Shown here piece after piece: positions 36,811 through 56,724 of a stretch of DNA of 64,000 bases. This DNA is from Streptantibioticus rubrisoli (GTDB lineage Bacteria; Actinomycetota; Actinomycetes; Streptomycetales; Streptomycetaceae). The position numbers were made by a program, and so were the translations under genes. The notes below the pieces were generated by a model that saw only the letters and a program-made list of their open reading frames with translations, ran no database searches and was not told where the DNA came from. The stretch lies in NCBI RefSeq assembly GCF_024436055.1, contig NZ_JANFNH010000025.1:1-64000 (forward strand). The letters run 5' to 3'. The number at the start of each line of letters is the position of its first letter. Position 1 is the stretch's first letter.

Positions 36811-40710
<3,900 letters not shown>

Positions 40711-40778: not shown

Positions 40779-40863
40779 CGGGCACCCGTTGCCCGGGCCT
40801 ACGTTTTCGGGCGGCCCATGGCACCCTGTGACGATCCAGTAAGCCCGTCGAGGGGGAATCGTG

Positions 40864-41529
40864 ATGATCCGCCGTCCTGTGATCCTGCTGTTCGGTGCCG
40901 CCGTGCTGCTGTCCGCCTGCTCAGGGCCCGCTCCGGAGAAGCACCGCACGGTCAGCTACGGGGTGCGCGATTCGGTGCGCAAGCTGGTCATCCAGGGCCA
41001 CACCGGGAACGTGAGAGTGACGGGCGGGGGCTCAACCGTCAGCGTCACCGAGAGACAGAACTACCAAAGCGCCCCCCCACACACCACCCACACCACCGCC
41101 GACGGCACGCTGACCCTGACCTACGACTGCCAGGACTGCGGCGTCGACTACGACGTGCGCGTGCCGACCGGTACGGCGGTCTCCGTCACCGCGAACACCG
41201 GCGACGTGACGATCAGCGCGATGGGCGGCCTGGTGACGGCCAGCACCGACACCGGATCGGTCACCGGGGACCGGCTGGCCAGCGGCCAGGCACACCTGAC
41301 GTCCGAGACCGGTGACGTACGGGCGACGTTCGACCACACCCCGTCCACCGTCTACGCCACCTCCCAGACCGGCAGCGTCCACGTCACCGTGCCGCGCGGC
41401 ACGCCGTACGCGGTGCAGGCCAGCGCCCAGACCGGCAAGGTCAGCGTCGACGTCACCCGGGACGACCACAGCCCGCACACCATCACGGCGAAGGCCGAGA
41501 CCGGGGACGTGACGGTCAGGGCGGTGTGA
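40864..41529 (+). CDS. DUF4097-like beta-helix lipoprotein
   Basis: A 221-residue lipoprotein: signal segment VILLFGAAVLLSAC with lipobox LSAC. The mature part is a repeating short-beta-strand pattern of the DUF4097 adhesin-like type (GNVRVTGGGSTVSVTERQ, SVTANTGDVTISAMGG, TGSVHVTVPRG, ETGDVTVRAV, with TGDV/TGSV/TGKV recurring about every 20 residues). The ATG at 40864 sits 7 bases after AGGGGG; the GTG just before is an alternative. It is expected on the outer face of the membrane; the function is unknown. Confidence 0.8.
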   Translation: MIRRPVILLFGAAVLLSACSGPAPEKHRTVSYGVRDSVRKLVIQGHTGNVRVTGGGSTVSVTERQNYQSAPPHTTHTTADGTLTLTYDCQDCGVDYDVRVPTGTAVSVTANTGDVTISAMGGLVTASTDTGSVTGDRLASGQAHLTSETGDVRATFDHTPSTVYATSQTGSVHVTVPRGTPYAVQASAQTGKVSVDVTRDDHSPHTITAKAETGDVTVRAV

Positions 41530-41568: not shown

Positions 41569-42393
41569 TCACCCCTTGCGGCGCAACCAGCGGCGACCGC
41601 GCTCCGGGCGGATAGCGGGACCGGCTGCGGTCGCGGTCCCGTTGGGATGGATGATCAGGGGCCAGACGGTGCCGTCCGGGTCGGTGGCGTTGGCGCGGAC
41701 CGGACGGGCCAGGCCGAGCTGCCCGATGTGACCGGCCGCCGCGGCGACGGCCGCGGCGCGGGGGTCGACGCCCGGCGGCTGCGGCACGGGCACGTCGTTG
41801 ACCAGGGCCGTGCCCTCCGCGGTGAGGGTGATGGTGAGCAGTGGCCAGGCGGGCACGCTGTCGGGGTCCACGTCCTGGGGCGCCGGGTGCTCCTCACTGG
41901 GCGCGCGGACCGGCGGTACGACGGGAGGGGCGGCCTCCGGCGGGGCTTGGGCACCGCTCGGGGGCGGCGCGGCGAGCGGTTCGGCCGGGAGGTACTCCGA
42001 CGCTCGCGGGGCCTGTTCGGCGGAGACGGCGGGCGACGTCGCGGCGGGGGGCCGTGCGGTGTCCGGCTGCTCCTGCGCGGGCGGTGACTGCGGGAGGCCG
42101 GACGGGGCCTGCGACGCGTCACGCCGTCGCAGTGGCCGCTCCCCCTGGAAGACGCCCCCCTCCGGCGTGATGATCATGGGCCAGCGCTGGCCGTCCGCTT
42201 CCCGGAGCACGGCGCTCACGGGACGGCCGAGTTCTCGTGCCCGGGCGACCGCCGCCTTGCAGACGGCGACCCGGGGGTCGGTGCCGTCGGGCACCTCGAC
42301 GGGGGTGCCGTCGAGGGACGCCTGACGGTCCGCCGTGACGATCAGGGAGAGGCGGGGATGGCGCGGTACGTCCTCGAAGCGGGGTCTGGTCAT
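41569..42393 (-). CDS. Unknown protein with two copies of a 70-residue domain, T4SS-linked
   Basis: A 274-residue protein that I do not recognise. Its N-terminal (about 13-82) and C-terminal (about 185-260) parts are clearly duplicates: both have Leu-rich start strands, a DPR followed by an Ala-rich helix, LGxPV or LARPV, and a DG-x-W-P-x-II strand ending in a PxG turn. A Pro/Ala/Gln/Glu-rich linker of about 100 residues separates them. No signal peptide or membrane segment. It is the last gene of a three-gene minus-strand operon with a wall hydrolase and a lipoprotein next to the type IV secretion genes. Confidence 0.6.
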   Translation of the reverse strand: MTRPRFEDVPRHPRLSLIVTADRQASLDGTPVEVPDGTDPRVAVCKAAVARARELGRPVSAVLREADGQRWPMIITPEGGVFQGERPLRRRDASQAPSGLPQSPPAQEQPDTARPPAATSPAVSAEQAPRASEYLPAEPLAAPPPSGAQAPPEAAPPVVPPVRAPSEEHPAPQDVDPDSVPAWPLLTITLTAEGTALVNDVPVPQPPGVDPRAAAVAAAAGHIGQLGLARPVRANATDPDGTVWPLIIHPNGTATAAGPAIRPERGRRWLRRKG

Positions 42394-42413
42394 GGTCGCG
42401 TCGCGTGCTCGGC

Positions 42414-43019
42414 TCAGGAGGAGACGTTGACCGCGGAGACGAGCCAGGGAGATCTGGTGTCAGCGCGGGTCATGGTTACGAACACGGTCGCGGTCGTCGG
42501 ACTTCCGGTCCAGCCGTCGCGGCCGTGCGGGGTAACGATAATGCCCCACTGGCGACGGGCCAGAGTGGCAGAGTCGGCCGGTTGGTCGTCGTGCTCCGCA
42601 CGCGCGGTCACGGTGGTGTAGGCGCGGTGCTGGGCCCATTGGCTCCACTGCGCTCCGGGCGCGGCGACGGGCGGGATGGACTTCAGGCCGGCCAGGTAGT
42701 CGGGGGCGAGGAACGGGCCGGAGCGCAGCTCGGCCTGGTACTGGGAGGCGTCGATGGTCGTGTCGACCGTCCACTGGACGGTGATCACGGCTTTGCTCAC
42801 CGCGGTCGGGTCCTGCCGGTCGACACCGGACGGCGCGGGGAGAGGCACCGGAGGGCTCCCCGCCTTGCCGGAGGGCAGCGGTTGCGAACTGGGCAGCCCG
42901 GTGGCGGCCGTTGGGCCCGGTGAGGTGGACGCGGCGCGGCCGCCGCCGCAGCCGACCGCGGTGACCAGCACCAACGACACGACGGCCGTCGCTGCGAAGC
43001 GTCGATGTGCGGCGGTCAC
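42414..43019 (-). CDS. Lipoprotein of the T4SS locus
   Basis: A 201-residue lipoprotein with a signal segment ending in AVGC (lipobox), a Ser/Pro/Ala-rich spacer, and a globular part (TVQWTVDTTIDASQYQAELR, WSQWAQHRAYTTVTARAE, VFVTMTRAD) that may adopt an NTF2-like/VirB8-like beta-rich fold. The GTG start overlaps the hydrolase stop by 4 bases (GTGA), so the two are translationally coupled. The function is unknown; a cell-surface part of the secretion apparatus is inferred. Confidence 0.68.
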   Translation of the reverse strand: MTAAHRRFAATAVVSLVLVTAVGCGGGRAASTSPGPTAATGLPSSQPLPSGKAGSPPVPLPAPSGVDRQDPTAVSKAVITVQWTVDTTIDASQYQAELRSGPFLAPDYLAGLKSIPPVAAPGAQWSQWAQHRAYTTVTARAEHDDQPADSATLARRQWGIIVTPHGRDGWTGSPTTATVFVTMTRADTRSPWLVSAVNVSS

Positions 43020-43996
43020 CCGAACCTCCTGACGTCCTGCACCATGCCGTCGTACTGGCTGAGCGGGGCGGTGCGCACGAAAGCCCCGGTGTGCGGTGCC
43101 TCGACGATCTGGCCGCCGCCGATGTACAGCACGACGTGGGAGTAGTCGCCGGGGCCCTCCGTTTGGATAACGATCGCGTCACCGGGCTGCATCTGATTCC
43201 TGGGGACTTCGGTACCCATGGTGGCCATCTCCTCGGAGGAGTGCGGCAGTTCGATCTTTCCGCCGGATGCCTGGTAGACGGCGTACAGCACCAGTCCTGA
43301 GCAGTCGAAGCCGCCGCCCGTCGGGCCGGAGGGCGCACCGCCGCCCCAGACGTAGGGCAGACCGATGTACTTCTCGGCCGCCGCGATCTCGGCCTGGCCG
43401 AAGGCTGTTCCACCACCGCCGCCGGGGGCGAGTGGTGCCTCGAACTTCTTCATCAGGGCCTCGATCGAGGTGACGTACCCCTGGGTCTCCGCGTAGGGCG
43501 GAACGCCGTTGTACCGCACGACGGCTCCGGAGCCCGCGTTGTACCCGGCCAGCATGTTGGCGATCGGGTCGCCGGGCACGTTCGCCACCTCCTTGGCGAT
43601 GGCGCAGTCGTACCGCCCCATCGCCATGATGGCATCGGCCGCGTTGAACGGGCTCACGTTGTGGGTGCCGTCGTCGTCCTTGCCCCAGTTCGGCCAGGTC
43701 TCGGGCATGAACTGGGCGATGCCCTCGGCGCCGACGGGGCTGACCGCGTTGGGATTCCAGCCGCTTTCCTGCTGTATCTGAGCGGCGATCAGCGGAGCGG
43801 AGACTGCCTTGCATTCGGCTCCCGCCGCCTGGACCCACCGCAGATAAGCCGTCGGCACGCTGTTGGTGGCGAGCCCCAGACCACCGGCGCTCGCCGAGTC
43901 GCCTCCGCCCGCCATCATGAACAGCATCAGCAGGCAGAAGATGAAGAAGAAGACACCGCCGCTCGCGAAAAGTCCGCAGCCCTTCACACCGCCCAC
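43016..43996 (-). CDS. CwlT/VirB1-like two-domain cell-wall hydrolase
   Basis: A 326-residue protein with an N-terminal membrane anchor (GVFFFIFCLLMLFMM), then an SLT-type lytic transglycosylase/lysozyme-like domain (about 50-190; catalytic Glu in QQESGWNPNAVSP, with GIAQFMPETW and LAGYNAGSGAV), then an NlpC/P60 endopeptidase domain (about 205-326; Cys in FDCSGLV, His in YSHVVLYIG). This architecture equals CwlT of ICEBs1 and related Gram-positive conjugation systems, which opens peptidoglycan for the secretion channel. The GTG start has GAGG about 9 bases upstream. It heads the operon divergent from the channel genes. Confidence 0.85.
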   Translation of the reverse strand: MGGVKGCGLFASGGVFFFIFCLLMLFMMAGGGDSASAGGLGLATNSVPTAYLRWVQAAGAECKAVSAPLIAAQIQQESGWNPNAVSPVGAEGIAQFMPETWPNWGKDDDGTHNVSPFNAADAIMAMGRYDCAIAKEVANVPGDPIANMLAGYNAGSGAVVRYNGVPPYAETQGYVTSIEALMKKFEAPLAPGGGGGTAFGQAEIAAAEKYIGLPYVWGGGAPSGPTGGGFDCSGLVLYAVYQASGGKIELPHSSEEMATMGTEVPRNQMQPGDAIVIQTEGPGDYSHVVLYIGGGQIVEAPHTGAFVRTAPLSQYDGMVQDVRRFG

Positions 43997-44260
43997 GTAA
44001 CGCGCCTCATTTCATGGCGGGTTGCGCTGGACAGCTCGACTTGTCCGAAACGGCGGCATGTGTCAACTTTGCCGAGTTGGGCTATGTCGCCGACGTCGAC
44101 CATCATCCCCCCAAATGACGCTGAATGACCGTGAATTGCTCCGCCCGAGCGGGGCAATCGCAACGACGATAGCCGCAACCGTGCCCAATCCGCTAAGCCC
44201 GGCTCCCTGCTGTCAGTGACTTCCTTTACACTCACAGGCCAGTACGGGGGAGGAGTCGAA
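43997..44260. promoter_or_regulatory. Divergent control region of the T4SS locus
   Basis: The 264-base gap between the hydrolase operon and the channel operon holds an inverted repeat ATTGCTCCG-N6-CGGGGCAAT (44135-44158, one mismatch), an operator candidate. A -10-like TACACT (44227-44232) lies about 30 bases before the first channel gene, without a good -35. No regulator gene is nearby. Confidence 0.45.
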
Positions 44261-44884
44261 TTGCAGGAAGTCAACCCATGGGTGACCAGGCCCACACAGG
44301 CAGTGTCTCCTGTGCAAGGTGCAATTCCCCAGTCTGTTGTCACCCACGCAGGTCCAACTCGTCCGCAACCCAACGCAGTTGACGCGCCCGATACCGGACT
44401 GCCGACCTTTCCGGTATCGGCGTCCAGGGACGTCGCCCCGCCCTCGTGGTGGTGGGTGGGCTGCCACGGAGGTGCTGGAGCCAGCACCCTCGCCACCGCG
44501 CTCGCGCACACCAACGCCGCCGACGCGCACGGTCGTTGGCCAGCTCCGCAACGACCCGACCTCGCGAGGGTCGTGGTGGTCGCCCGCACCCACTTCCACG
44601 GTTTGACGATGGCTCAGGCGGCTGCACGCCAGTGGGCCTCCGGGAGCACGCCGGAGGGCGTCGAGGTCCTGGGGCTGGTTCTGGTGATCGACGCGCCTGG
44701 CAAACTGCCAAAGCCGCTACGCGAGTTCGCGCACCTGGTCTCCGGTGGCTTCCCGCGCGTATGGGAGATTCCCTGGGTCGAGGAGTTCCGATGCGGTGCT
44801 CCCCCCGCCCCCCAGCACCCGGCGTTCCGCCGGATCGAACAAGATCTTTCCCGTGTTGTCTCTGGAGGTACTCCCCATGCGTGA
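44261..44884 (+). CDS. Degenerate P-loop protein of the T4SS locus
   Basis: A 207-residue protein with a Pro-rich N-terminus and a core beginning WWWVGCHGGAGASTLATALA. This matches the ParA/MinD-type Walker A (KGGxGKT) except that the key Lys is Ala, so nucleotide hydrolysis is doubtful. Strands VVVVARTHFHG and LGLVLVIDAPGKLPKPL fit the same fold. The TTG at 44261 is chosen because GGGGGAGGAG precedes it at ideal spacing. It is the first gene of the channel operon, overlapping the next by 8 bases; a structural or targeting role is inferred. Confidence 0.68.
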   Translation: MQEVNPWVTRPTQAVSPVQGAIPQSVVTHAGPTRPQPNAVDAPDTGLPTFPVSASRDVAPPSWWWVGCHGGAGASTLATALAHTNAADAHGRWPAPQRPDLARVVVVARTHFHGLTMAQAAARQWASGSTPEGVEVLGLVLVIDAPGKLPKPLREFAHLVSGGFPRVWEIPWVEEFRCGAPPAPQHPAFRRIEQDLSRVVSGGTPHA

Positions 44885-45167
44885 ACTCGCCCTGGCCGCC
44901 GTGAGCCGTGGCTACCAGGTCCTTGCCGTGGTCAACCCCGGCGAGGGGTCCCAGCCACCCGGCGGGGACAAGCTGACCACGGTCCTCGGATGGGTCGCCT
45001 GGATCGTGTGCGGCGTCTGCGTCGCGGGCGTCCTGATGGTCGCGGGCCGGATGGCCGTGATGCACAACCGCGGTGAGGGCGGTCAGCACATGGTCGGCAT
45101 CGCCTACGTGCTGGGTGCCTGCGTCCTGGTCGGTGCGGCGTCGGCACTTGTTGGCGCGCTGGTCTGA
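44877..45167 (+). CDS. Small two-helix membrane protein, VirB2/TrbC pilin-like
   Basis: A 96-residue protein with two hydrophobic helices (VLGWVAWIVCGVCVAGVLMV and VGIAYVLGACVLVGAASALV) separated by a short polar loop (NRGEGGQH). Size, topology and location before VirB8/VirB6/VirB4-like genes match VirB2-type pilins, although no signal peptidase site is obvious. GGAGG lies 6-7 bases before the ATG. It would form or line the channel. Assignment is by topology and context, since such proteins diverge strongly. Confidence 0.62.
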   Translation: MRELALAAVSRGYQVLAVVNPGEGSQPPGGDKLTTVLGWVAWIVCGVCVAGVLMVAGRMAVMHNRGEGGQHMVGIAYVLGACVLVGAASALVGALV

Positions 45168-45193
45168 CCAGGTAAGAGGAGGAGGAAATCTCC

Positions 45194-45964
45194 ATGGGCA
45201 TTGACGACCTCCCCACCGGAGAAGAGCGGACCAGTCCATTCCGTCGCCCCGGGTTCCTCGCGGCGGCTGTCTTCCTGGCGGTTGTGGTCGTGCTGGCTGC
45301 CGTCCTGGTCATCGCGAACGGCGGTGGCAAGGCCACCACACCGGTCGCGAAGGCCAGCGGCGGGCAGCCGACGGCCAGCGGCCAGTCGACCGCCACCAGC
45401 GCCCCGGGCGCGCTGGGCAACGCATGTGGCCTGAGCGACACCAGCCAGACCGTGCCGACGAGTACGCCCCCCAACATCAAGTGGGAACTGGTCTCTGGCA
45501 CGGCGGTGCCGACATCGTCGATCGCGGGGCCGGGGAAGGAGAGCGGCGGTGTGCCGAGCTGCTTTGCTCATACGCCGTTGGGCGCTCTCCTCGCCGTCTC
45601 CCAGATCGGTCAGCGGATGGGGGTGGCGACAAACTCCCAAATCGTCGCGATTCTCAAGTCGGCTGCGGTACCGGGACCGGTGTTGGACAGCGATATCGCC
45701 CGGCTTTCTTCGATGACCGACCAGGGCGGCAACTCTCCAAGTGGTCAACTGGCTGGCTTCCAGTTCGTCAGCTACCAGCCGGATACCGCGACCATCAACA
45801 TCGTGGTGAAGATGCCCGACTCCTCGATGAACACGGCGACCTTCACGCTGCGTTGGTATCAGGGGGACTGGAAGATCCAACTGCAGAGCACCGGGGCGGA
45901 CAGCTCCAACGTTTCCCAGATCACCAGCCTGGACGGCTACGTCCCTTGGAGTGGCCTCTCATGA
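45194..45964 (+). CDS. VirB8/TcpC-like bitopic channel protein
   Basis: A 256-residue protein with a short cytoplasmic N-terminus, one transmembrane helix (FLAAAVFLAVVVVLAAVLVI), a Ser/Thr/Ala linker and an extracytoplasmic domain ending in a NTF2-like strand (TFTLRWYQGDWKIQL). The central FAHTPLGALLAVSQ helix is shared with actinobacterial secretion-locus proteins. VirB8/TcpC proteins link the channel to the membrane. Good AGGAGGAGG precedes the ATG. Assignment rests on architecture, context and the NTF2-like C-terminus. Confidence 0.62.
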   Translation: MGIDDLPTGEERTSPFRRPGFLAAAVFLAVVVVLAAVLVIANGGGKATTPVAKASGGQPTASGQSTATSAPGALGNACGLSDTSQTVPTSTPPNIKWELVSGTAVPTSSIAGPGKESGGVPSCFAHTPLGALLAVSQIGQRMGVATNSQIVAILKSAAVPGPVLDSDIARLSSMTDQGGNSPSGQLAGFQFVSYQPDTATINIVVKMPDSSMNTATFTLRWYQGDWKIQLQSTGADSSNVSQITSLDGYVPWSGLS

Positions 45965-45993
45965 CCGCAATACAGTTCCGGGGGGTGTGAACG

Positions 45994-47295
45994 ATGTGTG
46001 GTGTCGGTTCCTGGATTATCCACCCCATCAACTGCACGACCCACGCGGTCACTTCGGGGATCATCAATGACATCGCCTCCGCTGTCCAGACAGCCGAGGC
46101 AGACATGATCGGGGCGTTGGCGTCGCTGTGGACCCATGTGCCGACGCCCACGGTCGGGTCAACCGACACTGGGCAGCCCGTGGGAGCGGTGGCGTTCCTG
46201 TGGACCGACACGAGTTGGCTGGTCGGTGCTTTCGCGGTGCTGGGCCTGCTGATCGCAGCGGGAAAGCTCGCATGGCAGCGTAGAGCCGAGCCAGCGAAGG
46301 CAGCCTTTCGGGGGCTGTTCAACCTCGTTGTGGTCTCCGGTTGTTCCGTGGCTGTCATCGAGCTCCTCACGAAAGCCGGCGACGACTTCTCGGAATGGAT
46401 ACTGCAGCAGTCCCTGCAAACGAGTGCCAGTTCTGACTTCGGTTCGGCGATGAAGAACCTCACGGTGCTGTCCACCAGCAGCATGTCTCTCATGTTGGTG
46501 ATCGTGATGGGCCTGATCGCGATCCTCTCCTGCATCGTCCAACTCATGCTCATGCTGGTGCGTTTCGCGATGCTCGGACTGCTCACGGGATTGTTGCCGG
46601 TCACAGCGTCCGTATCAGGAACAGAGAGTGGTCAAGCGGCCTTCAAGAAGGCCTGTGGCTGGCTTCTGGCGTTCGTGCTCTACAAGCCCGTCGCCGCGAC
46701 GATTTACGCCTACGCGATCGTGAGTATGAAACAGCAGGGCCTCACGGACGTGCTCTCCGGTCTCGCGATGATCATCATGTCCGTGGTAGCCCTCCCCGCC
46801 CTGATGCGGTTCATCGTCCCGGCCGTCAGCGCCGTGAGCGGCGGTGGCGGCGGCGCCGGGGCCGCCCTGGCCGGTGCGGGTATCGCGACCGGTGCCCGGA
46901 TGCTGGGTCAGGGCGCTCAGAGCAGCAGCGGTGGCGGCGGTGGTGGCGGTAGTGGCGGCGGTGGTGGTGACGACAGCGGCCCCACGGGCTCGAACCAGAC
47001 TCCGACCAGCAGCGGCGGCGGCCAAGGCCAGGGCCAAGGCGGCGGTGGCGGCGGTGCTCCCATGGGCGCCGAGGGCGGAGCCGAAGCAGCCGGAGCTGGC
47101 GGTGCGGGCGCAGGCGGTGCGGGCGCCGGTGCGGCGTCAGGCGCCGGTGGCGGCGCGGCAGCGGGCGGCGCGGCCGGAGCGGGAGCCGCGGCGGGCCCGG
47201 CGGGCATCGCGGTCGCCGCAGGCGCGCAGGCGGCCCAAAAGATCAAGGGAGCCGCTCAGGGCGCCGTTCAGCACACGACAGGGGAGGGATCGTAA
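45994..47295 (+). CDS. VirB6/TrbL-like polytopic membrane protein (SCO6881-like)
   Basis: A 433-residue protein with about six membrane segments up to residue 290 (for example WLVGAFAVLGLLIAAG, LMLVIVMGLIAILSCIVQLM, LMLVRFAMLGLLTGLLPVTA), and a conserved cytoplasmic Lys/Lys/Cys motif in AAFKKACGWLLAF. The C-terminal 140 residues are Gly/Ala/Ser-rich low complexity. It matches the family called SCO6881 in streptomycete annotation. It probably forms the inner part of the channel. It ends one base before the next gene, indicating tight coupling. Confidence 0.75.
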   Translation: MCGVGSWIIHPINCTTHAVTSGIINDIASAVQTAEADMIGALASLWTHVPTPTVGSTDTGQPVGAVAFLWTDTSWLVGAFAVLGLLIAAGKLAWQRRAEPAKAAFRGLFNLVVVSGCSVAVIELLTKAGDDFSEWILQQSLQTSASSDFGSAMKNLTVLSTSSMSLMLVIVMGLIAILSCIVQLMLMLVRFAMLGLLTGLLPVTASVSGTESGQAAFKKACGWLLAFVLYKPVAATIYAYAIVSMKQQGLTDVLSGLAMIIMSVVALPALMRFIVPAVSAVSGGGGGAGAALAGAGIATGARMLGQGAQSSSGGGGGGGSGGGGGDDSGPTGSNQTPTSSGGGQGQGQGGGGGGAPMGAEGGAEAAGAGGAGAGGAGAGAASGAGGGAAAGGAAGAGAAAGPAGIAVAAGAQAAQKIKGAAQGAVQHTTGEGS

Positions 47296-48792
47296 GTGGC
47301 CGCCGTCGAAGAGGCCGGGCCGCGTACATACGGGAACTGGCGCAAACCGACATCGCCGGGGATCGGGAGTCTGGGCCTCGCGGGGACGATCGTCCTGCTC
47401 GGGGGCCTGGTCCTCACCGTCATCGCGATGATGATCTCGCTGGTCGCGGGTGTGGTCATCCTCGGCCTGGTCGGCCTCATGCTCGCGCCGCTCTTCTTTC
47501 GTGACCGCCATGGGAGGACTCTGTTGCAGCGCGCCATCGCACGCATCGCCTTCAACCGCGGCCGTTCGGCCGGGCAGCACATCTACCGGTCCGGCCCGCT
47601 CGGTCTGACCGCTTCGGGGAGCTTCCGTCTGCCGGGGCTCGCGGCGGCGTCCACCGTGCACGAGGCCCGGGACTCCTACGGTCGGCCGTTCGGTCTGATC
47701 GAGGTGCCCTCCACCGGCCACTACTCCGCGGTCTTCGCCTGCGGTGCGGACGGCGCCGCCTTGGTCGACACCGACCAGGTCGACACATGGGTTGCCTACT
47801 GGGGCGCGTGGCTGGCCTCGCTGGCGCACGAGCCGTCGCTGGTGGCGGCCTCGGTCTCGATCGAGACCGCGCCCGACCCCGGTACCCGGCTCTCGCGCGA
47901 GGTGGAGGCCAACCTCAAGGCCGAGGCACCCCCGCTGGCGCGAGCCATGCTCCAGGAGGTCGTGCAGAGCTACCCCACCGGTTCGGCGCAGGTGAGCGCG
48001 CGGGTCTCGGTGACGTACTCCGCCGCGCCCCGGCCAGGTGCCAAGCGTCGCGACCGGGCGGAGATGGCGCGTGAGATCGGCACCCGGCTGCCCGGCCTGT
48101 CGGCCCGGCTCGGGATGACCGGGGCGGGTGAGGCACGGCCCATGACCCCCCAGCAGTTGGCCGAGATGGTGCGGGTCGCCTACGACCCCTCGGTGCAGGT
48201 ACTGATCGAGCAGGCACAGGCGTCCGGGGGTTCGGGGCTCACCTGGTCTGACGCGGGGCCGGTCGCCGCGCAGGAGGCGTGGGGCCACTACATCCACGAC
48301 TCGGCCGCCTCGATCACCTGGGGCATGTCGGAGGCGCCGCGCGGTGAGGTCCTCTCGACCGTGTTGACCGGCCTGCTCGCGCCGCACCGCGACATCGCCC
48401 GTAAGCGCGTCACCCTCATGTACCGGCCGCACGACCCCGCACAGGCCGCCCAACTCGTCGAGCGCGACCGGCGCGACGCGCGCTTCAAGCTGGGCGGCAA
48501 CAAGCCAGCCGCCCGCGACACGGTGGCGGTCGCCGCGGCCGAGCAGTCGGCGCAGGAGGAGGCGAAGGGCGCGGGGCTGGTCCGGTTCGCGATGCTGGTG
48601 ACCGCGACGGTCAACTCCCTTGAGGAACTGCCGAACGCCGCGGCGGCGATCGATGTGCTGGCGCCGCCGGCGCGTGTCCAACTGCGGCGGATGTATGGCT
48701 CGCAGGCGTCGGCGTTCGCGGCGGCCCTGCCGATCGGGATCGTGCTTCCGGATCACCTGCTGGTTCCGCAGGCGATCCGCGAGGCGACGTAG
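47296..48792 (+). CDS. VirB3/PrgI-VirB4 N-terminal protein (SCO6880-like)
   Basis: A 498-residue protein. Residues about 25-65 contain two close membrane helices ([37 protein letters not shown]), the VirB3/PrgI layout. The rest resembles the N-terminal, non-ATPase half of VirB4 proteins ([53 protein letters not shown]). There is no Walker motif; the ATPase half is the next gene. The GTG immediately follows the stop of the VirB6-like gene. It is annotated as SCO6880 family in other streptomycetes. Confidence 0.72.
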
Positions 48793-48802
48793 GAGGGGAC
48801 CT

Positions 48803-50281
48803 GTGGCGAAGGAGAAGGCGCCGAGGCCGCTGGTCGCACGGCCGGGGGCGCGTGGCTTTCCGGGACGCGGCGGCGGCAAGGCCTCCCTGGTGGAGGCGCC
48901 GCCGGAGTGGCGTGGCACGACCGTTCAGGTGTGCGGCCTGTGGCCGTTCGCGGCCGGGTCGGGTACGCCGATGTCCGGGGTGCCGGTCGGCCGGGTGCTC
49001 GACAACGGGGCGACGCTGTGCATGGACCCCATCTCGTGGTTCTCACGCGCGGGCCTGATCAACAACCCCTCGATGCTGGTCCTCGGCAAGCCGGGACTCG
49101 GCAAGTCGACCCTGGTGCGGCGCCTGGTGCTGGGCCTGACCGGCTACGGCGTCTACCCGATGGTCCTGGGCGACCTCAAGCCGGACTACGCGGACCTGGT
49201 ACGGGCGATGGGCGGACAGATCGTCAAGCTCGGCCGTGGGCTGGGGAGTCTGAACGTCCTGGACCCGGGGGAGACCGCGGCCGCCGCCGCGAAGCTGTCC
49301 GGCGCCGACCGGGAACGGCTGATCTCCCAGGGCCGGGGCCGACGCCTGAACATGGTCACGGCGCTGGTGACCATCCTGCGCAACCGTCCGGTGGTCGACC
49401 AGGAACGCACGATCATCAACACCGCGTTGCGGGTGCTCGAAGAACGCCACAAGGGGGTGCCGATCCTCCCGGACCTGATCCGGGTGATCGATGAGGGACC
49501 GGAGGAGCTTCGCGCGGTGACCCTGTCGCGTGGCAGCGAGGAGCGCTACCGGGTGGCGGTCGACGGTCTGCACGCCTCCCTGCTCGGGCTTCTCGACGGA
49601 CCGATGGGCGAGGCGTTCGCGCGGCCGACCTCGACGCCGATCCGTCTGGACTCGCCGGGCGGTGTGTGCATCGACATCAGCGGTATCGACGAGGCGGACG
49701 CCGAGCTCCAGGCCGCGGTGCTGCTGGCCTGCTGGAGCGACGGCTTCGGCGCGATCGAGGCGGCGCACGCCCTTGCCGACGCCGGGCTCGGCCCGCAGCG
49801 CCACTTCTTCGTGGTGCTTGACGAGTTGTGGCGCGTGCTGCGCGCGGGCAAGGGGCTTGTCGACCGGGTGGACGCGCTGACCCGCCTCAACCGTCAACAG
49901 GGCCTCGGCCAGGCGATGATCACGCACACCATGGCGGACCTGTTGGCACTGCCGGACGAGGCGGACCGGCTCAAGGCCCGTGGTTTCGCGGAGCGTTCCG
50001 GCATGGTCGTCTGCGGTGGGCTGCCGGAGGCCGAGATGCCGTCGCTGACGCAGGTGGTGCGGATGTCCCAACGCGAACAGCGCATGATCGTCGACTGGTC
50101 CACCCCACCGTCCTGGGACTCCCTGCTCGGCCGGGAGGGCGATCCGCCGGGACGCGGAAAGTTCCTGGTCAAGGTCGGTGGGCGGCCGGGCATCCCGTTC
50201 CACGTCGAGCTGACCAACGCGGAACTCGACGTCAACAACACCAACAAACGATGGGTGATGGGAACGGGGACTGGACAATGA
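48803..50281 (+). CDS. VirB4-type secretion ATPase (C-terminal half)
   Basis: A 492-residue P-loop ATPase. Walker A is GKPGLGKST (residues about 95-103), Walker B is [10 protein letters not shown] (near residue 340), and the downstream Arg/Gln motif is [19 protein letters not shown]. It matches the ATPase domain of VirB4/TraC proteins that power type IV channels. GTG start with AGGAGG 6 bases upstream. The last base of its stop overlaps the ATG of the coupling-protein gene (ATGA), so synthesis is coupled. Confidence 0.82.
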
Positions 50282-52044
50282 GCGTCACCAACAAGAGCCG
50301 TGGCCCGTCCGACCTCACGCCGGTCCTGGTCGTCGTGGGTCTGGCCACGCTGATCGCGGCCGTACTGGGCACCTGGGGTGCGATGCTCGGCGGTGCCGCC
50401 ATCGCCAACCAGCCCGAGCCCGCGGGCAATCCGGTGGCCGTGGTCATCAACCTGGCTGCGGGCAAGCAGCGTTGGCCGGGCACGGACGCGACGCTCATCG
50501 CCGTCGCCGAGCTGGTGGTCGTGCTGGCCCTGGTCGTTGCCGTACGGGCGCTGGTGCGGCGTGGCCGCAACCCCCGCGTCCGGGTCGACGCCGCCGCCCG
50601 CCATCTGGCCAACCGCAACGAGCAGTCCATGCTCTCCCGCGAGGGGGTGGCGGCCACCGCCGCCCGGCTCGGCGCTCCGCAGAGCCATCCCGGTGTGCGC
50701 ATCGGCCGGGCCCGGGGCACCGGCCAGCCGCTGTACGGGTCGTGGGAGGACATGCAGATAGACGTCTGGGGACCCCGGACCGGCAAGACGACGTCCCGCG
50801 CCATCCCCGCGATCCTGGATGCCCCCGGATCCGTTCTCGTCACCTCGAACAAGCGCGACATCGTGGACGCCACCCGCCTGATCCGCGAGGGCTTTGGCGG
50901 GGTGTGGGTCTTCGACCCGCAGAAGGTGGCGGGGGAGGAGCCCACCTGGTGGTGGAATCCGCTCTCCTACGTGACGGACATCGAGAAGGCCACCCGGCTC
51001 GCCGCCATCTTCACGGCGTACGGCAAGGACGCGGACGCCAAGACGGACTCGTACTTCGACCCCGAAGGCGAGTCGCTGCTGTCCTTCCTGCTGCTGGCGG
51101 CGGCCGAGGCGAACGAACCCATCACCACGGTCTTCAGCTGGGCGGCGGACCCCACCGAGACCAGGCCGGTGGAGATCCTTCGGGCGGCCGGACACCATCT
51201 GCCCGCCGACGGCGTGCAGGGCGTCATCAACTCCCCGGACAAGCAACGGGCGGGCATCTACGGCACGTGCAAGAAGTCCGTGAACTTCCTGGTCAACCCG
51301 TCGGTGACCCGATGGGTGACCCCGGATCCGCACAACCCGCACCGCCTGCAGTTCGACCCGCACGCCTTCGCGGCGGGCAGGGGCACCCTGTACTCGCTGT
51401 CCCGTGAGGGCCAGGGCACGGCCGGGCCGCTGGTGACCGCGCTGACCGTCGCCACCATCGAGGCGGCCGAGGAACTCGCCACCCGCAGCCCCGGTGGGCG
51501 CCTGACCACGCCGCTGCTCGGCGTGCTGGACGAGGCGGCGAACGTGTGCCGCTGGAAGGACCTGCCGGACCTCTACAGCCACTACGGTTCACGCGGCATC
51601 GTGCTGATGACGATCCTCCAGTCCTGGGCGCAGGGCGTCGTGGTCTGGGGCGAGAACGGCATGAAGAAGCTGTGGAGCGCGGCGAACATCCGCGTCTACG
51701 GCGGTGGTGTCTCCGAAACGCAGTTCCTCAGCGATCTCAGCCAACTGCTGGGCGACTTCGAGCCGGAGACCACCAGCTTCAGCACATCGCGCGGCGACGG
51801 CCGGTCGCGCTCCACACAGGTCTCGACCAGGGTGGAGAAGATCCTTGAGGTCTCCGACCTCGCCGCACTGCCGAGGGGCCGGGCGGTGCTGTTCGCCTCC
51901 GGCACCCGGCCGATCCTCATCGAGACCGAGCCATGGCAGCGTGGACCGCACGCGGCACAGGTGCACGCCTCCCTGGCGCGGTACGCCCCGGCCGAGCAGG
52001 CGCACGCCCACACACTGGCCAACGAGCCGGAAAGCAGGGCGTGA
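50278..52044 (+). CDS. VirD4/TraG-type coupling ATPase
   Basis: A 588-residue coupling protein: two N-terminal membrane helices (about 13-45 and 72-95), then a RecA-like ATPase with Walker [10 protein letters not shown] (about 164-172), Walker B GVLDEAAN (about 425), and [12 protein letters not shown] and [14 protein letters not shown] typical of TraG/VirD4. It would recruit substrates (DNA-relaxase or protein) to the channel. The ATG overlaps the VirB4 stop by 4 bases. This is unlike TraB/FtsK, the single-protein DNA pump that usually drives Streptomyces plasmid transfer. Confidence 0.85.
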
Positions 52045-52418
52045 TGGAACCGGCGGAGAGTGTCGAGACGGTCTATCCCGATCTGCCGACATGGGTCGAG
52101 GAGCACCTGGCGAAACTCGTCCAGCGCCGCCTCGGCGGAAGCCTGACCTGGTGCACCCAGTGGTACCGGCACGCCGAGGCGGTCAGCCGCCTCAACGCCA
52201 TGTGGCAGGAGTGGGAGGCGGCCGTCGCCGAGGCCACGATGTCCAACTGGTGGCTCTACCACTGCGATCCACACCTGAACGTCCTGATGTCCAAGGACGC
52301 GGGCCCGTTCATGGCCTGCAAGCCGGGCGACCACCGAACCCTGGAGCCCCTACCGGTCGCCGAGTCCGACGCCCGCCTGTGGCTGGGGTCGGCGTTCAGC
52401 AATCCGGCTGGTGACTGA
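52044..52418 (+). CDS. DUF4913-like small protein
   Basis: A 124-residue tryptophan-rich protein (WVEEHL, WCTQWYRHAEAVSRLNAMWQEWEAA, WWLYHCDPHLNVLMSKDAGPF). The pattern matches DUF4913 proteins found beside conjugation genes in actinobacteria. The function is unknown; many lie directly downstream of a VirD4-like gene, which suggests a substrate-loading or regulatory partner. Start ATG with TGATG overlap of the coupling-protein stop. It is the last gene of the channel operon. Confidence 0.75.
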   Translation: MEPAESVETVYPDLPTWVEEHLAKLVQRRLGGSLTWCTQWYRHAEAVSRLNAMWQEWEAAVAEATMSNWWLYHCDPHLNVLMSKDAGPFMACKPGDHRTLEPLPVAESDARLWLGSAFSNPAGD

Positions 52419-52539: not shown

Positions 52540-52782
52540 TCACAGGGAGAGCAGCGGCACCTTGCGGGCGGTCACGGCGACGGCCAGCGCGTCGTCGGCG
52601 TCCCCGCCGATGTCCGTGCCGATGATCAGCGGCGCGTTGCGCAGGTCCTCCGGCCAGGGAGCTTTGCGCAGTTGCTCACTCGCGGCCGCGAACTCCGGGA
52701 ACTTCTCGCCGAGTTCCGCCCGCTTGCGCCACTCCTCGCGCAGTTCACTCACTGTCCGGTCGTCGTCGTTGCTCTCGCCCAC
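52540..52782 (-). CDS. Short protein ending in a nucleoside-hydrolase motif (probably a fragment)
   Basis: An 80-residue product. A charged helical N-terminus (TVSELREEWRKRAELGEKF) leads into LIIGTDIGGDADDALAVAVTAR, which is the N-terminal calcium/ribose site (DxDxxxDD-like) of the inosine-uridine nucleoside hydrolase family; the protein then stops at VPLLSL. In another frame immediately after the stop the DNA reads on as VITADG, the natural next segment, but then diverges. I read this as a frameshifted or truncated hydrolase. GGAAGAA precedes the GTG. It could still be expressed as a short protein. Confidence 0.6.
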   Translation of the reverse strand: MGESNDDDRTVSELREEWRKRAELGEKFPEFAAASEQLRKAPWPEDLRNAPLIIGTDIGGDADDALAVAVTARKVPLLSL

Positions 52783-52815
52783 TTCTTCCTTTCACTCGGC
52801 GGGCCTTGCGACGGC

Positions 52816-53709
52816 TCAGCGCGCGATCCCGGTCGCGGCGCCCTGCATCCGTGACCGCAGGGCGTTGTGCGACGCCGACTGGGACCGCGCCGCCGACCGG
52901 CTGGCGGTGAGACGCGCCGAGGGGGTGCCGGAGTAGCCCTGGGCGGCGACCGCGACGGCCTCCGCCGCCTCCGCGTCCTCCACGGTGGCCAGGGCCGCCG
53001 CCGCGTCGCGGTCCTGGCTGGCGGCGGCCCGCATGTCGTCCGCGTGCTCCGCCTCGGCGCGCACGTCCTCGGCGGGGGCGTGGATCTGCGCCAGGCCCGC
53101 GGCCGTCTCGTCCGACCCGAGGGCGGCGGCGTCCTCGCCGCGGGCCCGGTCCCGCAGCCGGTCCTCGTCGCGGTCTCCGGGGAGGTTCCGGTCGCGGGCG
53201 TCGCGTTCCTGGCTGCTGCCGGGTGCGTCGGTCGTGCGTCCGTCGCGGTCCTCAGTGGTCCGCTCGGCGTTCGGGGAGCGTTGTTCGCCGCTCGTCCGTG
53301 ATGCCTGGTGGTCGGTTCGCGGGTCGGCGAGCCACTGGTGGGGGACTTCGATGCCGTGACGTTCCTTCAACTGCTGACTCATGTGCTCCAACGTCGACTG
53401 CGCGTACGGGTCGCCAGCCTGGGCCCACCCCTGGGTGACCTCCCAGGTCTGGGCGATCTGCTGGGGACGGGCCTGCTGCCACCATGCCTCGTCCCACGGC
53501 TGGCGCATGGTGGGCAACGCCCTGTCGCGTTCCGCGCTCAGCCGGGACAGGAACTCGTTCCGCTCCGCGTCAGACCTCGACTGTGCCTCGCGCAGTCGCT
53601 CCATGCGGCGCATCGCGGTCATCTCCGCGACCTCCATGGCCGCCTTGATGCCGCTGTGCAGAGCCGCGCTCATCGCCTGGTGGACCTCGTCCGTCGAGTG
53701 CTCACTCAC
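52816..53709 (-). CDS. Charged coiled-coil protein of the T4SS locus
   Basis: A 297-residue, very hydrophilic protein. Residues 1-65 form a long helix (HQAMSAALHSGIKAAMEVAEM, RRMERLREAQSRSDAERNEF) predicted as coiled coil; then a Trp/Gln-rich stretch (WDEAWWQQARPQQIAQTWEVTQ), then an Arg/Asp/Glu/Ala-rich disordered tail. No known domain is evident. The GTG start follows GGGGA. It lies in the minus-strand operon between the nucleotidyltransferase protein and the hydrolase fragment. It might be a structural or chaperone-like partner of the secretion locus. Confidence 0.65.
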   Translation of the reverse strand: MSEHSTDEVHQAMSAALHSGIKAAMEVAEMTAMRRMERLREAQSRSDAERNEFLSRLSAERDRALPTMRQPWDEAWWQQARPQQIAQTWEVTQGWAQAGDPYAQSTLEHMSQQLKERHGIEVPHQWLADPRTDHQASRTSGEQRSPNAERTTEDRDGRTTDAPGSSQERDARDRNLPGDRDEDRLRDRARGEDAAALGSDETAAGLAQIHAPAEDVRAEAEHADDMRAAASQDRDAAAALATVEDAEAAEAVAVAAQGYSGTPSARLTASRSAARSQSASHNALRSRMQGAATGIAR

Positions 53710-53792
53710 CGCATGTCCCCCTCTGTTCGTCTGCGGCCGATCCTAGCGATCCGGATATCGCCACACCCTCGCCCAACGACCAGGCAGGCGGC

Positions 53793-55460
53793 TCAGCGAG
53801 ACAGGCCGCGAGCCTGGGGAACGCCGCGCGGTCCCAGCGCTCTGGCCGCGCCCGGTCCGGCCATCGTGGTCCGTGTCTGCCGCGCGGCCTGCAGGCTCTG
53901 GCGGACACCGTCCTCGGCTGCCCGCTGCGCCGGGGAGAGCTGCTGACGGCGTCGCACCTCCGCGTCGGTCAACTGCCCCTGCTGCCACAGCTGCGGCAGC
54001 CCGGCCTGCCCGGCCGCCTGGTACGCGCGGGCGAGGCGTGCGTGCCGTTGGGCGAGGGCCTCGTCCGTCAGGAGCTGGGGCGGCAGGCTGCCGTTCGCCC
54101 CGACCGGGGGCGCGGTGGCCAGCATCCGCAGCAGCGGCTGCGCGGCGTCGTGCTCGACGCGTGGCGGGCTGTGCGGATCCGGGTAGGCCCTGGCGGCCAC
54201 GGCGTCCGCCTGTTCGGTGAGGCGTCGCATCGCGCCCAGGGCGGCCTCGTCGCCCCGGCCGCCCACGGCGTGGCCGATCACGGCGGCCCGGTACTGCGAC
54301 AGCCACTGTGCGTCGGCTGACACGCCGGACGCGTTGGACGGTGCCGCCTGCGTGCCGGGAGGGATCGGCGCCTGTGCGATGTGTGCCGTTTGTTCAGGAC
54401 GCGGGCCGGGGTTTGCCGCTTGTGCGATGTGTGCCGTCTGTTCAGGGCGCGGGCCGGGGCTTGCGGCCTGTGCGACGTGTGCCGCCTGTTCAGGGTGCGG
54501 GCCTGGGCTTGCCGCCTGTGCGCGGCGGCTGATCTCGCCGTCGATCCGTTGTATCTGGGCCTGGTTGGCGCCGACGAACTGCCGGGCCTGGGCCAGCGCG
54601 TGCTCGTCGGGTGCCTGCCGGACCATGGCTTCGGCCTGGCGCAGGGTCTGCGTGGTCTGCTCGCGCCAGACGGCCAACTGCTGGTCGGACAGCGCGGCCG
54701 CGACCTGGTCGTGCTGCCGTGGCTCCCGGCTCGCGTCGATCGCCTGGTCGGCGCCGCGCTGCGGCTGCGCCTGTGCGGGGGCGAGCCGGTTCGCCAGGCC
54801 GCCCACGGACTCGCGCACCCGCGACGTCTGCTCGGCCGTGAGCCCGTAGGCGGCGAACGCCTCGTCCGGCGGCTGCTGGATCTGCCCCAGCCGACCGCGC
54901 AGTTCCTCGGCGAACCGTTCCGGCGGCAGGCGCCGGACCTTCGTGCCGTAGCCGTTGACGTAGTTGGCGAGGTAACGGTCGGTACGGTCACCGAGGCGGG
55001 CGTGCAGGGCGGCGAGGTCGATGAAGTCCTTGGCCGCCACCCGGTTGTCGAGCGTCTGCAGCTTGCTGTACAGCAGCTCCGGGACCGCCCGGACCGGCAT
55101 ACCGCTCTGTTCCGTGAGGGGCACGTAGCGCGGGCCGCGGATCATGTCGATGACGACCGAGCCCTGTTCGGGGTGGCTGACACGCAACTTGGCGTTCTGC
55201 GGGCCGACGGCGTCGGGGTGGGTGCTCCAGGCGACGAGCTGCTCGGTGCGGTAACCAGCGGCCTCCAGGGCCGCGCGGACGTTCCCCCGTACCTCCTCAC
55301 CATTCACCAACTTGTTGGTGAACAGGTCGATGTCGTCGGGGACGCGGGCGCCGTCGACCTCGTGGAGCCACATGGCGAGACTCCCCGCCACCGCGTAGCC
55401 CTGGTCGGCGCAGGCGGCCAACGCCGTACGGGCGATGGCCGCCTTGTGTGCTGTCTCCAT
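53793..55460 (-). CDS. Nucleotidyltransferase-headed repeat protein (AbiEii-like N-terminus)
   Basis: A 555-residue protein. The N-terminal 160 residues look like an AbiEii/MNT-type nucleotidyltransferase: GSLAMW (26-31), PDDIDLF (41-47) giving the catalytic Asp pair, a third Asp in VVIDM (near 105), and KDFIDLAAL (144-152), the typical helix of the family. The remaining 390 residues are Gln/Ala/Pro-rich and helical, with three copies of a 16-residue repeat (QAASPGPRPEQTAHIA-like) near the middle. It lies next to a type IV secretion locus without the usual AbiEi antitoxin, so it could be a toxin, effector or phage-defence protein. It starts 4 bases after the upstream gene. Confidence 0.68.
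   Translation of the reverse strand: METAHKAAIARTALAACADQGYAVAGSLAMWLHEVDGARVPDDIDLFTNKLVNGEEVRGNVRAALEAAGYRTEQLVAWSTHPDAVGPQNAKLRVSHPEQGSVVIDMIRGPRYVPLTEQSGMPVRAVPELLYSKLQTLDNRVAAKDFIDLAALHARLGDRTDRYLANYVNGYGTKVRRLPPERFAEELRGRLGQIQQPPDEAFAAYGLTAEQTSRVRESVGGLANRLAPAQAQPQRGADQAIDASREPRQHDQVAAALSDQQLAVWREQTTQTLRQAEAMVRQAPDEHALAQARQFVGANQAQIQRIDGEISRRAQAASPGPHPEQAAHVAQAASPGPRPEQTAHIAQAANPGPRPEQTAHIAQAPIPPGTQAAPSNASGVSADAQWLSQYRAAVIGHAVGGRGDEAALGAMRRLTEQADAVAARAYPDPHSPPRVEHDAAQPLLRMLATAPPVGANGSLPPQLLTDEALAQRHARLARAYQAAGQAGLPQLWQQGQLTDAEVRRRQQLSPAQRAAEDGVRQSLQAARQTRTTMAGPGAARALGPRGVPQARGLSR
54370..54513 (-). repeat. Three 48-bp repeats in the nucleotidyltransferase-headed gene
   Basis: Three nearly identical 48-bp units (54370-54417, 54418-54465, 54466-54513) encode 16-residue Pro/Glu/Gln/His/Ala repeats in the central linker. 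They differ at few positions and keep the reading frame. Confidence 0.9.
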
Positions 55461-55464
55461 GGCC

Positions 55465-55950
55465 CTATCCGTCCGTGGCCGTGGCGCGTAGTTCGGGGAA
55501 CCGTTCCTCCCACACCTTCAGGATCTGCGGCGGCCCGAGACGGGACGGCCACAGGCGGCGCAGTTGGGCGCGGTTGAGCAGTCGCGCCTGCTCGGCGGCG
55601 GTTCCCTCCAGCAGCAGCCGCCGGTACAGGGAGGCGCGCTGCCACGCGGTGGGCTCGGCGATGTGCTCGGGCAGCTCCCGGTCCGCGAGATGGGCCGGAA
55701 CGTCCAGGGGGCCTTCGGCGGGGCCGCACAGCAGCGCCAGGTCCGCTACGACCTCGAAGCCGTTGAACAGCAGCCACTCACCGGCGTCCGGTGCGGTGCG
55801 CGCCGCCGCGATGTCGGCGGGGATGTCGCCCTGGCGGGCCATGGCCTCGACGGCCCTGCGCTGCTGTTCGTGTTCCTCGGCGACGGAGTCGAAGTCCGGT
55901 TCCGGAAAGTCCCCGAAGTCCGGCTCCGGGAAGTCGTCGGTGTCTGCCAT
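55465..55950 (-). CDS. Acidic protein of unknown function in the T4SS-linked operon
   Basis: A 161-residue acidic protein. The N-terminus repeats FPEPDFGD-like units (DDFPEPDFGDFPEPDFDS), followed by a helical body (EWLLFNGFEVVADLALLC, RASLYRRLLLEGTAAEQARLL, LWPSRLGPPQILKVWEERFPEL). I do not recognise a family. Because its stop is only 4 bases before the nucleotidyltransferase start, it may be that protein's partner (antitoxin-like or chaperone), but no DNA-binding motif is visible. The ATG at complement 55948-55950 is preferred to a much longer open frame with untypical composition. Confidence 0.65.
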   Translation of the reverse strand: MADTDDFPEPDFGDFPEPDFDSVAEEHEQQRRAVEAMARQGDIPADIAAARTAPDAGEWLLFNGFEVVADLALLCGPAEGPLDVPAHLADRELPEHIAEPTAWQRASLYRRLLLEGTAAEQARLLNRAQLRRLWPSRLGPPQILKVWEERFPELRATATDG

Positions 55951-56166
55951 TCGCTCGCGTTCCTGTGTGGGGTTCCGGGTCGCACGGTACCCGTGCAACT
56001 CGCCGCACGGCCACCGGCGTTGCGCCGGGGCTGGGCGGACGGTGTCCCTACCGCGCCTGCCCCGGGTGAGCCTCAGGGTTCGCCCGTACCTGGGGAGGAT
56101 CTGCTGGGCGCCGACCTGGGCGGAGGCTGTTGGTTGCCAGTTGCCGCGTTGCCAATGGGGGGTCCG

Positions 56167-56574
56167 ATGAAGCAGGAGCACCTGGAACTCAAGCCGCGGC
56201 CAGCGGTGTTGGCCGCGCCCGGAGGGCTCGCCTTCCGCCCGGCGCTCGGCACTCGGGGCCGGGCCGCGCTCGAACTCTTCGACAGTGACGGGGTGTTGGG
56301 GGTCTACGTCGACACCGCGTTCAGCGGGCTGCTGCTCGGCGCGCTGCGCGGACGGCGGCCTGGCGAGGCCTGGGCGCTGGCCTGGGGGAGGGTGGGGGCG
56401 GACGGGCGGGCGCCCGCGGTGGCCTTCGAGGGGCGGCGGCGCGGCCTGCCGGTTTCCGCGGCCATGGTGGGGCAGCGGTTCTGGGTGGCCAGCGCGCGGG
56501 GGGAGTTCAAAACCGTGACGGCGGCGGGACCGGGGCGGGTGGAGACCTGGCGGCTGGGGAGCCTGGGGGCGTAG
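56167..56574 (+). CDS. Hypothetical protein between T4SS locus and str operon
   Basis: A 135-residue protein, basic and Ala/Gly/Arg-rich, with alternating strands (AVLAAPGGLAFRPALG, ALAWGRVGADGRAPAVAFEG, RFWVASARGEFKTVTAAG) suggesting a small beta-rich fold. No membrane helix or known domain. GGGGG lies 4-5 bases before the ATG at 56167; the frame is open further upstream without a signal. Its place before rpsL and the downstream DUF1707 protein suggests it belongs to the conserved chromosomal backbone rather than to the secretion locus. Confidence 0.6.
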   Translation: MKQEHLELKPRPAVLAAPGGLAFRPALGTRGRAALELFDSDGVLGVYVDTAFSGLLLGALRGRRPGEAWALAWGRVGADGRAPAVAFEGRRRGLPVSAAMVGQRFWVASARGEFKTVTAAGPGRVETWRLGSLGA

Positions 56575-56724
56575 CCCGCGGAAACATCCGTCGATATCCG
56601 TCAACGCCGCGGGAGGCTGTTCGCGCGGAACTCCACGCGGCGCTGCCGCGTCAAGCACTATGGGGGGCACACGATCCCTGGCGGGGGAGAATGGTCCCTA
56701 CAAGTGGGGGAGGTTCGCGGGCGG

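Follow-up and report, generated by a model that had tools for sequence, protein, structure and literature searches.

A type IV secretion locus without a detected relaxase, inserted between rpoC and rpsL in Streptantibioticus rubrisoli

Organization of the locus

Our analysis covered a window of 64,000 nucleotides from Streptantibioticus rubrisoli (contig NZ_JANFNH010000025.1, positions 1 to 64,000), in which a multi-part Gram-positive type IV secretion system (T4SS), with a VirB4-type ATPase, a VirD4 coupling ATPase and a VirB1-like cell-wall hydrolase, lies between rpoC (36811-40710) and rpsL (57617-57988). Both flanking genes, and likewise the fusA flank, were identified by Pfam. The locus consists of two divergent operons, a minus-strand group headed by D (B-C-D) and a plus-strand group (E-F-G-H-I-J-K-L), with a further minus-strand group, M-N-O-P, at 52540-55962. 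A preliminary description of this DNA, made from its letters, had placed the system at 41569-52418, and all of its coordinates for the open reading frames (ORFs) in this interval are correct. Its right border at 52418 had to be moved, however, since homology carries the block about 4 kb further through M-N-O-P, giving an extent of about 41.56-56.2 kb. The ORFs that it listed are present, but it omitted E and left L without a name.

A probable split VirB4 and a VirD4 coupling ATPase

The product of I (47296-48792, plus strand) belongs to the NCBIfam SCO6880 family (E 5e-168) and found no match in a PDB sequence search. Its predicted model (mean pLDDT 68.8) has two helices at residues 27-67, taken as transmembrane (TM), followed by a fold like the N-terminal half of VirB4. 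The 14 best Foldseek rows for this model were all chains of the R388 T4SS, six of them from entries titled TrwK/VirB4 (E 2e-10 to 7e-8), and VIA-align against R388 VirB4 gave Z scores of 20.7-22.6 over 324-343 residues, with VirB4 residues up to 382 covered. The next gene, J (48803-50281, plus strand), has both a Walker A (GKPGLGKS at residue 95) and a Walker B motif (336-341); its VirB4-type family matches (E 4e-9 and 1.6e-8) both fell short of the model cut-offs, and its one match at E<=0.01 in a PDB sequence search was the VirB4-like 4ag5 (E 0.0015). Because I folds as the N-terminal half of TrwK/VirB4, and J has the motor motifs and a VirB4-like match, VirB4 is most likely divided between two genes, as in the plasmid relatives described below, with I as the N-terminal half and J as the motor half. 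R388 TrwK/VirB4 differs in that two genes take its place here, the first of them with two additional N-terminal helices. The VirB4-half fold of I also suggests a likely role for the SCO6880 family. K (50278-52044, plus strand) matches TraG-D_C (E 2e-33) and T4SS-DNA_transf (E 2e-20), both above cut-off, and retains both Walker motifs (Walker A GPRTGKT at 165, Walker B region at 417). The family match, half-fold and motor motifs of I and J thus bear out the VirB4 that the preliminary description had put at 47296-50281, the VirB4 fold of I emerging from the structural comparison that it had named in advance as a check, and the two domains and Walker motifs of K do the same for its VirD4.

An actinomycete integrative and conjugative element (AICE) with an FtsK-like TraB as its sole transfer protein was rejected, since separate VirB4 and VirD4 proteins are present and, J, alone of the ten proteins scanned, has a match to FtsK_SpoIIIE, which lies below cut-off (E 0.036). 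Matches of the I model to FAD-dependent oxidases (Z about 8) were judged to be due to chance, and a Walker A that looked degenerate to a regular expression in the VirD4 of some relatives proved on alignment to be a motif whose first residue in that group is A in place of G. The I model also resembles chains from the ESX-3 and ESX-5 type VII secretion systems (6umm_A, Z 15.4; 7b9f_E, Z 12.0; 6sgz_D, Z 11.4), which we take to be EccE.

The cell-wall hydrolase and putative channel proteins

D (43016-43996, minus strand) combines SLT and NlpC/P60 domains and carries their motif residues (QQESG at 75, DCSG at 231 and SHV at 286), in agreement with its earlier designation as CwlT/VirB1. The predicted model of G (45194-45964, plus strand; mean pLDDT 83.8) has one N-terminal helix, taken as TM, and an NTF2-like domain, which would suit a VirB8-like protein; its best structural row, TraM of the plasmid pIP501 (Z 8.1), is level with unrelated NTF2 folds, so that the fold is what supports this designation. 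F (44877-45167, plus strand), a protein of 96 amino acids (aa) with two hydrophobic stretches, is VirB2-like in size and position, and H (45994-47295, plus strand), polytopic with a glycine-rich tail, is VirB6-like in position; hydrophobicity judged by eye and synteny speak for both labels, but neither protein has a Pfam or NCBIfam match, and H found no relevant match in the PDB sequence search. E (44216-44884, plus strand) has a Pfam match to DUF6668, and its HGGAGxST motif may be akin to a ParA-type P-loop lacking the lysines. L (52044-52418, plus strand), with DUF4913, is syntenic on plasmids.

Relaxases and integrases

On the 90-kb contig that contains the window, there was no match at E<=0.001 to PF03432, PF08751 (TrwC) or PF00589, other relaxase families and serine recombinases being unsearched and the contig ends bounding the view of neighboring genes. 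The earlier statement that relaxase and integrase are missing thus holds for two relaxase families and the tyrosine integrases, and on the same ground an ordinary integrative and conjugative element (ICE) was set aside. For the two families and this contig, the locus is a VirB4 cluster without a relaxase nearby, like the MOBless T4SS (PMC3158045), which occur with or without a type IV coupling protein.

Elsewhere in the genome there is one PF03432 gene (contig C42) and one TrwC gene accompanied by its own VirD4 (contig C48), and the end of contig C53 holds part of a second, distant T4SS. The C42 relaxase stands alone with a NikA/MobC-like gene (the pair at 9278-10914 of locus L026) among metabolic genes, with no integrase among the ten proteins scanned around it. 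Streptantibioticus ferralitis has three PF03432 matches and no TrwC match.

A motor relative at E<=1e-60 was found in 29 of 150 sampled genomes of the family, with at most 10 candidates scored per genome and with many drafts in the sample, in which contig ends may hide relaxases. Motors at least 45% identical to that of the window occur as 29 copies in 21 genomes, and just four copies have a relaxase (PF03432 or PF08751) within 30 kb: those of G131 and G054 at 5 kb, that of G068 at 11.5 kb and one of the five in G019 at 27 kb. Seven of the 21 genomes (G005, G013, G029, G063, G071, G082 and G138) have neither family at all; such whole-genome absences weigh more than local absence, which alone proves little. 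Several more distant copies (35-39% identity) do have a relaxase near, for example in G004, G024, G030 and G136. In G019, the five motor copies lie on the genome's single contig (C1), with VirD4 and hydrolase genes rearranged.

The block is an insertion

The genus comparison comprised three genomes: that of the window, S. ferralitis JCM 14344 and a further congener, G002. In S. ferralitis, B-L and M-P are collinear with those of the window at the identical rpoC-rpsL site, whereas G002 has an empty site with a 2.2-kb spacer only. The comparison across the rpoC-rpsL interval, which the preliminary description had also proposed, therefore gave a mixed answer within the genus, and its placement of the locus in the housekeeping core has to be abandoned: because the G002 site is empty, the locus is an inserted block in the rpoC-rpsL spacer. 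No tRNA and no convincing flanking direct repeat were found at the block. Independent gains at one site in both species are unlikely, given the collinearity of B-L and M-P, and the site and gene order common to both suggest that the block became fixed in the chromosome before the split from S. ferralitis. Transfer or recombination of the block after the split may nevertheless have occurred, since synonymous divergence (dS) runs higher in the block (0.24-0.77) than in the nine flanking non-ribosomal genes that were usable (0.17-0.45), although the two ranges overlap.

Between L and N, S. ferralitis has a complete nucleoside hydrolase gene and one more gene, relatives of which (62% and 42% identical) stand beside the relaxase module of plasmid NZ_CP108182. 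About 2 kb of this DNA is gone from the window, where the hydrolase is cut down to an N-terminal remnant of 80 aa (M, 52540-52782, minus strand; 351 aa in S. ferralitis).

Purifying selection on the machine

None of the T4SS ORFs is interrupted in the window, nor does a stop occur in the S. ferralitis stretches that align with them. Between the two species, dN/dS is 0.067 for J, 0.10 for L, 0.107 for F, 0.117 for I, 0.142 for H (compared over residues 3-309), 0.166 for K and 0.203 for D, with dS of 0.28-0.77 for these genes; the highest value among B-L is that of G (0.375), and N, O and P give 0.28, 0.33 and 0.43, respectively. Codon position 3 takes 93 of the 114 substitutions in J, and a third-position excess over the expected one third is found in each of B-L (raw p <=2.4e-4) but not in P (p 0.058). 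Nine pairs were compared in other lineages: motor dN/dS is 0.03-0.11 in those Nonomuraea pairs whose fetched DNA lacks VirD4 and 0.03-0.05 in five pairs from clade C of the motor tree (see below). Purifying selection of this kind supports the idea of a working machine. Two ORFs with dN/dS above 1 (w20760 and w28869) are assumed to be in the wrong frame, and w3, w6008, A and w62053 had no match.

Relatives of the motor in actinomycetes

The motor tree was built from 103 sequences by a quick search with SH-aLRT support; it contains some long rows and leaves out the duplicate loci L132, L166, L192 and L194. The relative loci comprise the best 80 among 156, and some of their contigs may not be chromosomal. 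Clade A (starred, n=14) holds the window, S. ferralitis, eleven Streptosporangiales loci and one unplaced metagenome-assembled genome (MAG); clade B (n=28) includes the three plasmids in the tree; and clade C (n=56) is mostly Streptomyces, with six Micromonosporales loci. A relaxase profile made from 14 sequences matched in the fetched DNA of 0/14 loci in clade A, 8/28 in clade B (three of them the plasmids) and 0/56 in clade C, where each of the two fetched flanks spanned 7 kb or more in 11/14, 19/28 and 44/56 loci, respectively. A single TrwC query found no match in the loci examined. Among the sequences outside clades A, B and C are a further relaxase locus (L140) and the distant copy in G024 (G024_O), on whose contig a PF03432 match lies about 9 kb off, beyond the fetched stretch.

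The closest motors outside the genus among these best 80 (76-82% identity) come from Nonomuraea, Actinomadura, Actinoallomurus and two MAGs (L120-L131), which share the starred clade with the window and have no relaxase detected in the fetched DNA. VirD4 adjoins the motor as in the window in three of these 12 loci and is divergent, on the other strand, in two. The loci L121, L122, L124, L127, L128, L130 and L131 (Nonomuraea, Actinomadura and a Streptosporangiaceae MAG) show no VirD4 and no relaxase within the flanks fetched.

Plasmid relatives

Relatives of the VirB4 motor occur in 478 plasmid records, 96 of them from Streptomyces. Three circular Streptomyces plasmids, NZ_CP108182, NZ_CP109498 and NZ_CP107988, share the gene order DUF6668-F-G-H-SCO6880-VirB4-VirD4-DUF4913 with the window and have motors 64-66% identical to J; they also carry divergent NlpC/P60, C and B genes, as seen in the two plasmids in which that side was examined. 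They differ from the window in having a relaxase gene downstream (with MobC named in two of them) and a helix-turn-helix (HTH) gene upstream; the plasmid relaxase, MobC and HTH genes had no match in the window or in the S. ferralitis stretch. The multi-part channel that the preliminary description contrasted with the TraB-only plasmids of Streptomyces is thus real, but such channels are less unusual on plasmids of this genus than it supposed, with 96 records of motor relatives and three circular plasmids that share the gene order and add a relaxase.

A check of 10 plasmid records found a relaxase within the stretch examined for five (the three above, NZ_CP045736 and NC_014549). PLSDB assigns a MOBP relaxase to two of the other five, hence elsewhere on the plasmid, and types NZ_CP108182, NZ_CP109498 and NZ_CP107988 as non-mobilizable despite their annotated relaxase, which makes the typing unsure. 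In two Streptomyces-type plasmids, NZ_CP108570 (L202) and NZ_CP109353 (L203), genes for SCO6880 and the motor are present, the annotation names no TraM-recognition (VirD4) gene, and the stretch examined yielded no relaxase match.

Interpretation

We read the locus as a relaxase-free T4SS of actinobacterial conjugative descent that was fixed in the chromosome before the species split and whose likeliest cargo is protein, passed on through contact between hyphae or cells, and we give this reading somewhat better than even odds (about 0.55). In such a machine, D would open the cell wall, a channel would be built from G, H, F and the N-terminal helices of I, I and J together would form the VirB4 motor, and VirD4 (K) would select the substrate, which we predict to be a protein crossing the envelope where hyphae or cells touch. 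Protein appears the likeliest substrate because there is no recognized enzyme in cis to nick and load DNA, and yet J and K are under selection. The three functions offered by the preliminary description, namely protein secretion, cell-cell contact and service to elements encoded elsewhere, still seem the right set, with purifying selection favoring a machine that works. Export of protein has been proposed for MOBless T4SS as a class (Guglielmini et al., 2011; PMC3158045), and a conjugative T4SS is reported to mediate antagonism that does not depend on plasmid transfer (PMC11045733).

Several observations weigh against this reading. No effector or immunity pair was recognized, and when 2,054 ORFs were clustered in search of a conserved effector beside the motor, 16 recurring clusters (one example of each judged by eye) were mostly taken for ordinary neighbors, with some uncharacterized ones among them. 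The search for relaxases was made with PF03432 and PF08751, leaving out other families; two relaxase genes exist elsewhere in this genome (C42 and C48); and half of the 10 plasmid records checked lack a relaxase in the stretch examined, so that local absence occurs on plasmids too. N, kin to a relaxase-adjacent gene, persists. The low dN/dS values could partly date from a past as a mobile element, and in some Nonomuraea pairs the constraint on H is weaker (dN/dS 0.30-0.57). Finally, seven of the 12 close relatives have no VirD4 in the fetched DNA, which indicates that the usual VirD4 route is not obligatory in this subfamily.

The presence of relaxases elsewhere in the genome keeps alive a different explanation, in which the channel still conjugates, as a helper for relaxase-bearing elements at other sites. 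The lone PF03432 relaxase with its NikA/MobC-like partner, the TrwC relaxase, the three PF03432 matches (and no TrwC match) of S. ferralitis, and the retention of VirD4 and N are all compatible with it. We consider it unlikely, since the TrwC element brings its own VirD4 and part of a second, distant T4SS lies at the end of C53, the C42 relaxase shares just 34-35% identity with the relaxases found beside this type of T4SS on the three plasmids, and seven genomes with related machines have neither PF03432 nor PF08751. Moreover, G002 has a relaxase and yet no locus, so relaxase genes do not track it. A defective ICE, that is, a stranded conjugation module decaying without function, would account for the truncation of M, for the loss of about 2 kb of DNA still present in S. 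ferralitis and for the lack of matches to the relaxase, MobC and HTH genes of the plasmid relatives, and such elements are known in Streptomyces from what PMC9513070 reports in the portion used here. Decay fits poorly with T4SS ORFs that are open in the window and without stops in the aligned S. ferralitis stretches, with the strong constraint on them and with a whole clade without a detected relaxase, and we regard this explanation as more doubtful still.

The sporulation machine of S. coelicolor offers a further precedent. According to the sections of PMC2782261 drawn on here, cmdABCDEF and SCO6871-6884 are chromosomal clusters with VirB4-like, SCO6880-like and SCO6881-like proteins; CmdB is VirB4-like, SCO6878, SCO6880 and SCO6881 resemble CmdB, C and D, and deletion of cmd disturbs sporulation and chromosome segregation. 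The likeness to the window is drawn from these descriptions. That the locus is a developmental machine of this kind, directed at the envelope or chromosome of its own cell as it sporulates, nevertheless strikes us as quite improbable: the motors of a putative cmd locus (L017/L018) are 29% identical, the locus is absent from G002, and null mutants of SCO6878 or SCO6881 lack such a phenotype (unpublished data cited in the same sections of PMC2782261).

Returning to a relaxase-free machine for protein delivery, we suggest tentatively, and with less confidence than for the locus itself, that two old T4SS lineages without relaxase, one mostly of Streptomyces with Micromonosporales and the other of Streptosporangiales with Streptantibioticus, are domesticated machines that deliver protein between hyphae or into competitors, the window representing one that keeps VirD4. 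If this is true, they would constitute a Gram-positive class of T4SS devoted to protein transfer, and clades that combine strong constraint with no detected relaxase would in any event provide a concrete gene set for another job in actinomycetes. The locus itself is an intact-looking T4SS of known conjugative type, its novelty lying in the relaxase-free version, the relatives of which appear widespread. Few T4SS were found in actinobacteria by PMC3158045, the cited part of which describes no examples from these orders, and no paper on relaxase-free T4SS lineages in these orders was among the matches listed for open-licence PMC (title and start of abstract). In the passages cited, one Streptomyces alarmone synthetase adjoins TrwB/TrwK-like genes and involvement of a T4SS is suggested (PMC12691689), and a review covers Gram-positive conjugation systems as well (PMC12857230).

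Accessory genes and other observations

B (41569-42393, minus strand) contains two similar stretches, recognized by eye, and has no Pfam or NCBIfam match; its relatives flank the T4SS on two of the three plasmids compared. C (42414-43019, minus strand), a putative lipoprotein by eye, is syntenic on two plasmids (41-44% identity). On the far side of the block, N (52816-53709, minus strand) is related to the N-terminal part of a relaxase-adjacent gene on three plasmids (30-36% identity), O (53793-55460, minus strand) has an AbiEii-type nucleotidyltransferase domain, identified by a Pfam match in the S. ferralitis copy, and a long C-terminal part, and P (55465-55962, minus strand; 165 aa) has no Pfam match. 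A longer ORF at 55465-56670 overlaps, in its part upstream of residue 237, spacer DNA that is common to the empty site. No defense gene was recognized by PADLOC among B, C, K, N, O and P or in the two cargo genes of S. ferralitis. O and P also stand side by side in G068 (contig C2, 47 kb from the motor) and in G047 (contig C7, with the motors on another contig). A DUF4097 lipoprotein gene (40861-41529) lies between rpoC and the block; at the corresponding position, neither S. ferralitis nor G002 has a match to it.

Streptomyces sp. NBC_00249 (L103 and L104 on contig C9 of G063; also L194) has a T4SS between rpsL and rpoC too. With a motor from the other relaxase-free clade and an operon oriented opposite to rpoC, this locus probably arose by a separate insertion at the same site.

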